This document shows, one piece after another, positions 39,231 to 53,463 of a stretch of 56,559 nt of DNA. The notes beneath the pieces were generated by a model. It worked only from the letters and a program-made list of their open reading frames with translations. It did not search any database and was not told the origin of the DNA. This DNA comes from Lachnospiraceae bacterium (GTDB taxonomy: Bacteria; Bacillota; Clostridia; Lachnospirales; Lachnospiraceae). Location: the NCBI GenBank assembly GCA_016290905.1, contig JAEEVO010000008.1:1-56559 (forward strand). Reading direction: 5' to 3'. Every line of letters starts with the position of its first letter. The first letter of the stretch is position 1. Position numbers and translations under genes: made by a program.

Positions 39231-39311
39231 CTGTTCAAAACACACGAGTAAACATAAGCCGCGCAGCGGCGGCAGACGGCGAAGCCGGCTGGTTTATGAG
39301 TGAGTTTTGAA
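39231..39311. repeat. 81-bp hairpin repeat, copy 1
   Basis: This 81-bp sequence is repeated exactly at 39437-39517. Its ends pair: TTCAAAAC...GTTTTGAA and, with mismatches, AGTAAACATAAGCC with GGCTGGTTTATGAGT; the centre is GC-rich. Each copy is followed by CCTGTGGATAGTAAC. No frame spans it. Confidence 0.9.
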
Positions 39312-39331
39312 CTTCCTGTGGATAGTAACGT

Positions 39332-39417
39332 AACCGAGAAGAAGGAATTTTATTTATAAAATTCCGAGATTCGAGGTGTTTGTAGGATTGCGGGAGTGCG
39401 CAGCACGAAGCAATCCG
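39332..39417 (+). repeat. Tandem-G.A two-hairpin module, copy 1
   Basis: Hairpin 1: ACC-GA-GAA, internal loop GAA/GAGA, stem GGAATTTT/AAAATTCC, then TTC-GA-GGT. Hairpin 2: GGATTGC, internal loop GGGA/GAA, stem GTGC/GCAC, GCAATCC. A copy with different but still complementary stems lies at 42557-42644 on the minus strand. The 401-nt gap between pilT and the patatin gene holds this module, the flanking 81-bp repeats and three copies of GTTACTATCCACAG in both orientations; nothing else is evident. Confidence 0.7.
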
Positions 39418-39436
39418 TTGGTAGTATCAAATCCCA

Positions 39437-42520: not shown

Positions 42521-42549
42521 ATAAAACGATGCTCCGCATTTCATTTTAT
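42521..42549 (-). repeat. Truncated copy of the GATGC hairpin
   Basis: On the minus strand ATAAAA...TTTTAT encloses ATGC-GGA-GCAT. It resembles the first stem of the modules at 33653 and 42710 with compensating base changes and lies 33-61 nt before pyrB. Confidence 0.6.
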
Positions 42550-42556
42550 AATAACA

Positions 42557-42644
42557 CGGATTGCTTCGTTGTAAACAACTTTCGCAATCCTCAAAACACT
42601 TCGAATATCGCGTTTTTCATGAAAAACGCTTCTTCTCAGTGTTT
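42557..42644 (-). repeat. Tandem-G.A two-hairpin module, copy 2 (pyrF-pyrB spacer)
   Basis: Read on the minus strand: AAACACT-GA-GAA, loop GAA/GATA, stem GCGTTTTT/AAAAACGC, TTC-GA-AGTGTTT; then GGATTGC, loop GAAA/GAA, stem GTTGT/ACAAC, GCAATCC. The junctions match the module at 39332-39417 while the two distal stems differ completely and remain complementary. Confidence 0.72.
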
Positions 42645-42661
42645 TTGTCGTTCGTTAATAT

Positions 42662-42694
42662 ATACGACTTTACATGCAAGCATGTAAGTCGTAT
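42662..42694. repeat. Hairpin in pyrF-pyrB spacer
   Basis: ATACGACTT and AAGTCGTAT frame TACATGC and GCATGTA, giving an almost perfect palindrome of about 33 nt with one bulged base. Confidence 0.8.
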
Positions 42695-42709
42695 CTTTAA
42701 CTCACCAAC

Positions 42710-42778
42710 GTCACCTCGAAAACGCCTTCAGCGTTTCCTCGGTAATAAAAAACGATGCTTCGCATCTGTTTTTTATAT
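42710..42778 (-). repeat. Tandem-G.A hairpin module, single-hairpin type (after pyrF)
   Basis: On the minus strand it overlaps the end of pyrF (ATATAA includes the stop), then AAAAAAC...GTTTTTT encloses GATGC-GAA-GCATC, followed by ACC-GA-GGAAACGC, loop TGAAG, GCGTTTTC-GA-GGT. It matches the module after rnhB with compensating changes in both stems. Confidence 0.75.
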
Positions 42779-51212: not shown

Positions 51213-51235
51213 TGATTTCTACTTTTAGATCTACA

Positions 51236-51300
51236 GGGATGAATTAAGACAGTTCCTCTTGGCCAGGAAACGGGCAGAGGAATCTGTCTTAATTCATCCC
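51236..51300. repeat. Long hairpin H1
   Basis: Arms GGGATGAATTAAGACAG and CTGTCTTAATTCATCCC pair over 17 bp, and TTCCTCT/AGAGGAA continues the stem to 24 bp with one bulged T. The apex contains GGCCAGGAAACGGGC. The apical 30 nt reappear inverted in hairpin H2 at 51556-51586. It begins 24 nt after the transglutaminase-like stop and has no T run, so it is not a classical terminator. Confidence 0.92.
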
Positions 51301-51337
51301 TTCGTGCATCTATACGATTTTTATGCTACGGCAGATC

Positions 51338-51410
51338 TGTCATCCTGAGCGTCAGCGAAGGATCTTTCTACCTTATATTTAAAAGATTCTTCGCTTCGCT
51401 CAGAATGACA
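51338..51410. repeat. TCATCCTGAG-type repeat, full copy 5
   Basis: TGTCATCCTGAGCG, GCGAAGGATCTTT, a 15-nt AT-rich centre, AAGATTCTTCGCTTCGC and TCAGAATGACA. It lies between H1 and the inverted-unit island. Confidence 0.88.
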
Positions 51411-51415
51411 ATATT

Positions 51416-51698
51416 GGGATGGCATCAGACATTCTCTTTTTTTTTATTTAAACTAAGAGATGGCATCAAATTATTCCTCAGTATTTACATAAACTAAAGG
51501 ATGTCATCAGACATTCTCTCCCCTTTTACATAAACTAAGGGATGGTATATGACATTTCCTCTGCCCGTTTCCTGGCCAAGAGGGAATGTCATATACCATC
51601 CCGTATTATTTCCAAAAATGTCTGATGCCATCCCGCAAAATTATACAGAATGTCATATACCATCCCGATTAATTATAGGGAATATCTGATGCCATCTC
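51416..51698. repeat. Inverted-unit island, exact 41-bp and 32-bp periods
   Basis: Four units starting RRGATGNNATNNNACATT lie at 51416, 51457, 51498 and 51539, exactly 41 bp apart, the first three ending in TAAACTAA. Four units in the opposite orientation end at 51602, 51634, 51666 and 51698, exactly 32 bp apart. The central pair forms hairpin H2. The last unit begins within the stop codon of aspS (TGA followed by GATGGC). The island fills the convergent gap between the transglutaminase-like gene and aspS together with H1 and repeat copy 5. Confidence 0.92.
51539..51602. repeat. Long hairpin H2, centre of the island
   Basis: Arms GGGATGGTATATGACATT and AATGTCATATACCATCCC pair over 18 bp, and TCCTCT/AGAGGG extends the stem with one G-T pair. 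The apex GCCCGTTTCCTGGCC is the inverse complement of the H1 apex. Confidence 0.92.
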
Positions 51699-53463
51699 AC
51701 TCCGCGATTTTGATGTGCACTTCCTTCAACTGCTTCTCAGTTACCTCGCTCGGTGCGCTGCACATAAGATCCTGTGCATTACCGTTCATCGGGAAGCAGA
51801 TAACCTCACGGATCGACTCCTCACCGGTAAGCAGCATGATCATACGGTCAACTCCGGGAGCTGCACCTGCATGAGGCGGTGCTCCGTAACAGAAAGCATT
51901 GTACATAGCAGGGAATTTTGATTTAACCTCTGCCTCGCCGAGACCGACAAGATTGAACGCCTTAACCATGATCTCAGGATCATGATTCCTGACTGCACCT
52001 GAAGCCGACTCATAACCGTTTATAACAAGGTCGTACTGGAAAGCGTTGATGCTCAACGGATCAACCTCTCCTCTTTCAGCCTTCTCAAGTATTTCCATAC
52101 CACCGTCGGGCATAGAGAAAGGATTATGACAGAACTCTAAGGTTCCGGACTCCTCACCTATCTCATACATCGGGAAATCAACTATCCAGCACATCTTATA
52201 CTGTTCCTTATCCATATGATCGGGACAAAGAATACCAAGTTTTGATCTGAGCACGCCTGCTGTCTTCTGTGCAACTGCCTGCGTACCTGCAGCTATACCT
52301 ACGAAACATCCGGGCTTTAAGCCTAATGCTTCGATAACCTTCTCTTTAACCGGCTGAACAAACTTTGCGATACCTCCGACGATCTCGCCCTGCTCATCAA
52401 CACGGAACCAATATGTCTTCTGTGCTGTCTGAACCTCAACATCGGCTACGAGCTGATCGATCTGCTTTCTTGTAGCGGTGAAACCGGGTACGACAGCAAC
52501 CTTTATGCTCTTTTCGGTAAACGGATCAAAGCCGATACTTCCAAGAACCTCCGTTGCATCCTGCAGGCAGAAATCAATACGAAGATCGGGCTTATCCGTT
52601 CCGTATTTCTCCATAGCCTCACGGTAAGGTATACGCTCAAAAGGTGCAGGACTTACCCTCTTGTAAACACCGTACTTTTCAAATACGGGAACAAGAACCT
52701 TTTCCAATACGCCGAGTACATCATCCTGTGTAGCAAAAGCCATCTCCATATCCAGCTGATAAAACTCGCCGGGAGTACGGTCACCACGAGCATCCTCATC
52801 ACGGAAGCAGGGAGCTATCTGGAAGTAGCGGTCAAATCCCGAAGTCATAAGCAGCTGCTTAAACTGCTGGGGTGCCTGAGGAAGTGCATAGAACTTTCCG
52901 GGGAATTTACGGCTGGGAACGATATAGTCTCTTGCTCCCTCGGGTGAAGAAGCTGTAAGAATGGGCGTTGTAATCTCTAAGAAGCCCTCTTCGGTCATCG
53001 AACGTCTGAGTTCAGCAACAACATTGCTTCTTAAAACTATCTTTCTCTTTACATCGGGATTGCGCAGGTCAAGGAACCTGTACTTAAGTCTTGCATTCTC
53101 ATCAGCCTCCTTGGATCTGTTGATCTCGAAGGGCAGCTCGTTGTAGATACATTTTCCGAGGATTTCAATCTTCTCGGGAACCACTTCTATCTCTCCTGTA
53201 GGAAGGTTTGCGTTCTTGCTGCTGCGTTCTCTGACAGTACCGGTAACGGAGATTGTAGATTCGTTATTGATGCCGTCGATGATATTCATCATATCCTCGG
53301 TCTCGATAACAATCTGTGTTGTTCCGTAGAAATCCCTTAATACAAGGAATCCAAGTGTCTTGCTAACCTTACGCATGTTCTCATACCAGCCGCATAAGGT
53401 TACCTTCTTACCTGCGTCTGCAAGGCGAAGCTCGTTACAATTGTGTGTTCTTGACTGTTTCAT
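51697..53463 (-). CDS. aspS: Aspartyl-tRNA synthetase
   Basis: This 588-residue class II synthetase charges tRNA-Asp. It has an N-terminal OB-fold anticodon-binding domain (about 1-105), motif 2 FQIAPCFRDEDARGDRTPGEF, in parts, the bacterial-type GAD insertion (about 290-420) and motif 3 GAAPGVDRMIMLL near the C terminus, with HAGAAPG. Length and GAD domain mark the bacterial type; whether it also charges tRNA-Asn cannot be told. AAGGAG lies 6-7 nt before the ATG. It lies 23 nt after the YcxB-domain gene. Confidence 0.96.
   Translation of the reverse strand: MKQSRTHNCNELRLADAGKKVTLCGWYENMRKVSKTLGFLVLRDFYGTTQIVIETEDMMNIIDGINNESTISVTGTVRERSSKNANLPTGEIEVVPEKIEILGKCIYNELPFEINRSKEADENARLKYRFLDLRNPDVKRKIVLRSNVVAELRRSMTEEGFLEITTPILTASSPEGARDYIVPSRKFPGKFYALPQAPQQFKQLLMTSGFDRYFQIAPCFRDEDARGDRTPGEFYQLDMEMAFATQDDVLGVLEKVLVPVFEKYGVYKRVSPAPFERIPYREAMEKYGTDKPDLRIDFCLQDATEVLGSIGFDPFTEKSIKVAVVPGFTATRKQIDQLVADVEVQTAQKTYWFRVDEQGEIVGGIAKFVQPVKEKVIEALGLKPGCFVGIAAGTQAVAQKTAGVLRSKLGILCPDHMDKEQYKMCWIVDFPMYEIGEESGTLEFCHNPFSMPDGGMEILEKAERGEVDPLSINAFQYDLVINGYESASGAVRNHDPEIMVKAFNLVGLGEAEVKSKFPAMYNAFCYGAPPHAGAAPGVDRMIMLLTGEESIREVICFPMNGNAQDLMCSAPSEVTEKQLKEVHIKIAE

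Follow-up and report, generated by a model that had tools for sequence, protein, structure and literature searches.

In the gap beside aspS of a Lachnospiraceae bacterium lies an island of inverted units which we read, with about an even chance of being right, as a compound member of a family of REP-like palindromic repeats, the arms of which would stay matched through a DNA-level process such as template-switch copying. The window is the whole stretch of DNA that was analysed, 56,559 nucleotides of contig JAEEVO010000008.1 (here C57) in assembly GCA_016290905.1 (here G000), which is 2.94 Mb long in 198 contigs and 81% complete. It was compared with a genus sample of 24 genomes that includes G000 itself, a second species, G008, which corresponds to the sheep-rumen MAG RGIG6836, and a third species carrying a related hairpin, G010. 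The names R1 and R2 have a double use, for right units of the island (R1-R4) and for two search models; the latter are always called model R1 and model R2.

The island lies between two genes that converge on it: aspS, on the minus strand, whose product has tRNA-synt_2, anticodon-binding and GAD domains, and, on the plus strand, a gene for a transglutaminase-core protein. The initial annotation described exact periods of 41 bp on the plus strand and 32 bp on the minus strand around a central hairpin, and the unit coordinates bear this out: plus-strand units start at 51417, 51458, 51499 and 51540 (spacing 41, 41, 41), and minus-strand units lie at 51585, 51617, 51649 and 51681 (spacing 32, 32, 32). 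It was likewise right that a hairpin forms the centre of the island, that the units have partners in the opposite orientation, that its unit U1 (51416-51433) is perfectly complementary to the unit at 51617-51634 over 18 bp, and that the island abuts the aspS stop codon (TGA, 51697-51699), the A of which is the first base of the last minus-strand unit. A second copy of the loop family (51235-51301) lies just beyond the stretch it described. The features of the gap are these:

51235..51301, minus strand: hairpin h1, a family member with the exact loop and a core orientation opposite to that of the island (75.5 bits with model R1)
51417..51433, plus strand: left unit L1 (GGATGGCATCAGACATT), predicted fold partner R4
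51458..51474, plus strand: left unit L2, degenerate (GGCATCAAATTATT), letters nearest R4, fold partner R3 (9 pairs)
51499..51515, plus strand: left unit L3, partner R2
51539..51602, plus strand: central hairpin, made of the L4 arm, the core and the R1 arm (81.6 bits with model R1)
51561..51580, plus strand: conserved apical core CTGCCCGTTTCCTGGCCAAG, with the 2-nt bulge CA
51585..51601, minus strand: right unit R1, an arm of the central hairpin
51617..51633, minus strand: right unit R2, fold partner L3
51649..51665, minus strand: right unit R3, of the same type as R1
51681..51697, minus strand: right unit R4, whose first base is the final base of the aspS stop codon

The island is beyond chance, both in its pattern matches against a reversed control and in its fold against shuffles. 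With up to two mismatches, the unit pattern of the initial annotation matches the 2.94-Mb assembly at 8 sites, of which 7 are inside the island, and the reversed control gives 0; even at this tolerance the pattern misses L2 (51458). The predicted folding energy of the island is -105.1 kcal/mol, whereas its shuffles average -55.5 (z -10.8) and none of 200 does as well; h1 as an RNA of the core-forward strand folds at -40.9 kcal/mol (z -10.3). The predicted fold of the island is concentric, pairing L4 with R1 (23 pairs), L3 with R2 (16), L2 with R3 (9) and L1 with R4 (15). By letters alone the units are less tidy, for L1 is nearest R2 (18), L2 is nearest R4 (16) and R3 resembles R1, which argues that some one-sided duplication happened.

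Between h1 and the island, at 51338-51410 of the window, lies a separate palindromic repeat (TCATCCTGAGCG...CGCTCAGAATGAC), and a similar stretch adjoins the C75b hairpin. Matches in four plasmid records all fall within query positions 114-196, which are 51338-51420 of the window and belong to this neighbouring TCATCCTGAGCG palindrome, not to the island; they were set aside. Elsewhere the window holds two Clostridiales-1 RNAs (RF01699), at 42549-42716 (minus strand) and 39310-39426 (plus strand).

The initial annotation looked to the units for relatives across the genome; the units themselves are confined to the island, and what is dispersed, unseen at that stage, is the central hairpin. Its 22-nt loop TGCCCGTTTCCTGGCCAAGAGG has 5 exact occurrences in G000. 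The aspS gap holds two of them, at 51255-51276 (minus strand) and 51562-51583 (plus strand), contig C75 another two and C85 the fifth. Each exact loop sits in a hairpin of 64-76 nt, the two arms of which vary between copies and match each other. With one mismatch the loop is also present in G008, the sole other case among the 24 genus genomes, and a search of 299 family genomes allowing up to two mismatches found it in G000 only.

A covariance model built from six hairpins brought to light a related but longer core, CTGCAYGGCTTTGRNGCCTGCCAAG, which occurs in G008, and a variant of it in G010. Model R2 was run on the 24 genus genomes at a threshold of E 0.01, and in each of them 150 first-look candidates were scored. 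It detects the family at 5 sites in G000, at 1 in G010 and at 15 in G008, of which six are on C34, three on C53, three on C8 and one on each of C5, C7 and C49; the remaining 21 genomes gave no match. Three hairpins sit awkwardly with a fixed core and perfect arms. Two are in G008 and partly decayed in their arms, namely the C7 copy, a partial match, and C34:63481, in its right arm; the third, C118:8228-8294 in G000 (L040), is matched by model R1 at E 0.01, has arms near those of C75a and a different loop, and stands outside the counts as possibly a core-swapped or decayed member. Model R1 also matched hairpins of the GGGGACGGTTCTTCTGTC type in G005, G012 and G023; these have no core, are missed by model R2 at E 0.01, and were rejected.

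The arms are 21-28 bp long in the 19 hairpins compared, and the apex of the family is a mostly conserved core, CTGC...GCCAAG, which forms a short inner stem with a 2-nt bulge; all 13 invariant columns in the 17 hairpins that were aligned lie in or adjoin this apex. By tables of open reading frames, used without annotation, the copies occupy 16 gaps, 7 convergent, 7 same-direction and 2 divergent. Three short open reading frames that overlap copies (166, 119 and 91 aa) look spurious.

The orthologous gap of G008 contains an island built to the same plan, along with two single hairpins. The gap is bordered by the end of aspS, whose protein is 92% identical, and by the end of a transglutaminase-like gene (protein 54% identical over 341 aa), whose last codon is near L077:1252. 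The G008 island consists of three left units, a core and three right units, with unit starts in L077 at 1010, 1054 and 1099 on the left and 1146, 1182 and 1222 on the right (spacings 44 and 45, then 36 and 40); its unit letters differ from those of G000, and its core is reversed relative to aspS. Letter scores are best concentrically (L3-R1 22, L2-R2 18 and L1-R3 18, against 12-16 off the diagonal), and the predicted fold has three stacked stems of 24, 24 and 20 pairs at -141.9 kcal/mol (z -14.0). The left units are spaced more widely than the right ones in either species (41 against 32 in G000, 44-45 against 36-40 in G008) and, by eye, the right spacers of both start with CG; any likeness between the spacers of the two species is weak. 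The view of two separate rounds of tandem growth, put forward in the initial annotation, is therefore too simple: both islands fold as concentric stems, which points to a compound nested hairpin and not simply to two independent tandem growths.

G008 also has a second aspS, 52% identical and with a T-box leader (L076 752-980, and L122 on C5), and a core hairpin lies just upstream of it; the surrounding genes we take to be a gatA/gatB/gatC-like run.

The arms of the family change together. In the 17 aligned hairpins, under the structure with the CA bulge, 95.0% of cells are paired against 70.7% when shuffled, and 27 of 34 pairs have changed on both sides; row G000_C57h1 has a single-base bulge, and part of it is out of register in this alignment. 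Covariation is 0.620 against 0.188 in shuffles, 0 of 500 shuffles reach any of five measures, and sliding the partner by 1-3 columns lowers covariation from 0.62 to 0.09-0.17. Across the 19 hairpins, an arm is 0.945 identical to its own partner and on average 0.575 to other partners. In 33 pairs of hairpins with similar arms (from 17 of the 19; h1 and the C49 copy were excluded for an arm indel), there are 149 both-arm and 43 one-arm changes, counts to be read with the caution that the pairs overlap, so that events are not independent, and that the comparison is ungapped, so that a coupled indel (C34a/C34b) counts several times. The both-arm changes comprise 75 transitions and 74 transversions, the one-arm changes 37 and 6. 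In the closest G008 subfamily (6 hairpins), departures from the consensus are 9 on both arms and 6 on one, 5 of these 6 at a single position. G-T makes up 4.1% of standard pairs in the loop-core hairpins. It outnumbers A-C by 21 to 9, with 6 of the 21 from an inner-loop pair, and by 15 to 5 in the arms alone on the core-forward strand; many of the one-arm and G-T differences share one position, probably by descent. A tRNA control for this ratio gave 86 Watson-Crick, 8 G-T and 0 A-C pairs in 4 tRNAs, a set too small and biased by the finder.

Since coupled changes exceed one-arm changes, half of them are transversions and G-T is rare, matching of the arms at the DNA level is favoured. For rRNA, it has been reported that 61.0% of instantaneous compensatory changes are of types able to pass via G-U, and template switching has been described as a way in which coupled changes and perfect stems arise (both PMC8794818). 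The template-switch hairpins of that study resemble the present family in that both arms change together, transversions included; they were studied in RNA genes such as rRNA, whereas ours are dispersed between genes and come with stacked outer units.

The rival that survives best, which we nevertheless think unlikely, is a structured RNA at the 3' ends of genes, a transcribed hairpin with an apical loop that would be bound by a protein or RNase, its pairing being maintained by ordinary compensatory selection. Such an RNA would give the strong covariation, would suit a distribution in which just 2 of 16 gaps are divergent and the rest evenly convergent or same-direction, and is favoured by the excess of G-T over A-C on the core-forward strand. 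The bias of one-arm changes towards transitions, taken with that excess, is what a transcribed RNA would also give and so counts against the DNA-level reading. However, the low share of G-T pairs and the transversions that make up half of the coupled changes tell against an RNA, as does the occurrence of copies in both orientations within one gap, and at locus L114 the core has drifted and yet the arms are still near-perfect, which template switching fits.

A second structured repeat bears on the same question. The end of aspS was located in 22 of the 24 genus genomes (in one of them with no bases beyond); the downstream letters were inspected in 12, and the remainder were covered by the model search alone. 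G002, G004 and G006 have another kind of element in the aspS gap, a multi-hairpin repeat of about 250 nt, listed here by locus:

L191-L220: 250-nt multi-hairpin repeat, in genomes G002, G004, G006, G010, G011, G014, G017 and G020

Its marker TTTCGGACGCTTRCAATCG, with up to two mismatches, is present in 9 of the 24 genus genomes with up to 14 matches per genome, and is absent from G000 and G008; the single match in G018 comes without the rest of the element. No Rfam match was found in the three loci scanned (L081, L100 and L107). Among 16 aligned copies (row L206 was left out), 63 of the 79 consensus pairs have changed on both sides and the loops are conserved; the pairing is imperfect, with 69 other mismatches. 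G-T accounts for 2.2% of standard pairs, and at 26 G-T to 31 A-C there is no excess of the wobble that RNA tolerates. The element is unrelated to the loop-core hairpins and carries the same signature of coupled change, which supports DNA-level pairing as a wider habit of these genomes.

It is rather improbable that the element is REPIN-like and is moved in trans by a tyrosine transposase of the RAYT/TnpA_REP kind. The loop-core hairpins are bulged, dispersed, palindromic, intergenic and repeated, and the genus does have the enzyme: Y1 transposase matches (PF01797) are found in 12 of the 24 genomes, with one in G008 and four in G010, and of the 6 RAYT-length Y1 loci that were checked, 3 have inverted repeats close by. 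G000, however, has no Y1 match, an uncertain absence at 81% completeness, and the RAYT-length gene of G008 neighbours a different hairpin (GGGTCAGACCCC...). No invariant end motif is shared by the 17 aligned hairpins, which have no GTAG/CGTC tag (CGTC is seen by eye in some G008 arms only), and it is the loop that is more conserved, not the stem. The element thus resembles REP in its setting, but has neither the tag nor a Y1 match in G000. As described in PMC3733652, REP, REPIN and BIME sequences are, like our family, small intergenic palindromes with several copies per genome, mostly 3' of genes and often as opposed neighbours, but they have CGTC stems of 8-9 bp and a terminal tag, whereas here the arms are 21-28 bp and variable, the apex is more conserved, there is no tag, and copies are few. 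The TIRtrons of the same source, RAYT elements flanked by terminal inverted repeats, have long near-perfect inverted arms beside a Y1 gene, an arrangement also seen in this genus; unlike them, our hairpins have no transposase gene alongside (open reading frame tables, by eye), and arm and loop sequences are different.

In G003 (L047), a RAYT-length Y1 gene (match 579-911) lies between long nested hairpins, at 15-134 and 1626-1696, of similar letters (GGGGACGGGGGTTG...).

We found neither a target duplication nor a clean empty site. At the C85 copy, relatives have a different gene order: the upstream gene, which we take to be ecfT, is present in 21 other genomes, and in the 11 inspected the sequence after it, presumably mostly a truA-like start, differs and shows no core hairpin, hence no clean empty site. 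As for MITEs, the ends vary from copy to copy and no empty site is available for a target-site duplication. A CRISPR array does not fit, for the units differ, their orientation flips at the centre and the left spacers are alike. Between 51180 and 51760 there are 2 promoter-like sites (shuffles 1.2) and 1 terminator-like site (shuffles 0.5), about as shuffles give; the latter is a weak Rho-independent site at 51667-51646, and neither the central hairpin nor h1 has one. Rfam gives no family for the island at gathering score (4 matches in the window, all elsewhere), in keeping with the initial annotation, which found no standard feature to explain it, and among 10 loci it gives the T-box in L076 only; miRNA-type matches to the island at the E-value threshold lie far below their own gathering scores and were rejected. 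Mitochondrial double-hairpin and repetitive hairpin elements, judged by titles, are small mobile hairpins too, but the family here is bacterial. No title or abstract opening among the open PMC papers listed in our searches (subscription papers lie outside them) describes the core or such elements in Lachnospiraceae.

There was no exact core of either type in viral contigs and no match to the island query in phages. A gapped core pattern matched 37 stretches of the genome_contigs collection, which may omit the window's own genome; 6 of them are in RGIG6836 (11 matches, stem scores 10-26), and the other 31 have stem scores of at most 5 and were taken as chance or coding matches. Among 397 family genomes, with 12 candidates scored per genome, model R2 at E 1e-4 found G000 and G289 only.

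The G289 locus (C36 177075-177260, L188; 56.5 bits), in another genus, is a nested hairpin with a similar apex and a 2-nt AA bulge, and follows a gene that we take to be rubrerythrin-like. A model that includes it gave one further weak match among 41 genomes of its genus, G437, whose letters have no such core. With one region only, and that sole further match lacking the core, the likeness is treated as possible convergence, its homology being uncertain.

An origin by local duplication, or by faulty metagenome assembly, around a single terminator hairpin, without relatives as the initial annotation had allowed, would suit units confined to the island and a fragmented assembly. It is highly improbable: the same-design island in the orthologous G008 gap contradicts it, exact loops are dispersed through the genome, and the central hairpin has no terminator-like site.

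Under the preferred reading, that of a REP-like family matched at the DNA level, the core would be the part recognised by some trans-acting protein, and copies may spread via some enzyme or by local duplication. One arm would be copied from the other by template switching at the hairpin during replication, which would need no dedicated enzyme, and the stacked units could stem from duplications of an arm with its spacer on both sides of the hairpin, after which the facing units evolved together as nested stems. Copied mutations alone would lead one to expect the same excess of transitions in coupled as in one-arm changes, and the two shares are unequal (75 to 74 against 37 to 6), which argues that selection or another process also acts.

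Tentatively, and with rather less than an even chance of being right, we suggest that these are self-templating palindromes, in which the core is constrained, the arms are continually rewritten from each other and the concentric islands are the grown form, with two unrelated families of the genus behaving alike. If true, self-templating would give wholly new stem sequences without loss of pairing. Coupled changes in a stem are usually taken as proof of a working RNA; in the family described here the loops are slow to change, arm turnover is fast and few pairs are G-T, so that copying between arms at the DNA level becomes testable in a few copies. An odd repeat island can also be a shared architecture written in unrelated letters, of a kind that searches by sequence similarity miss.
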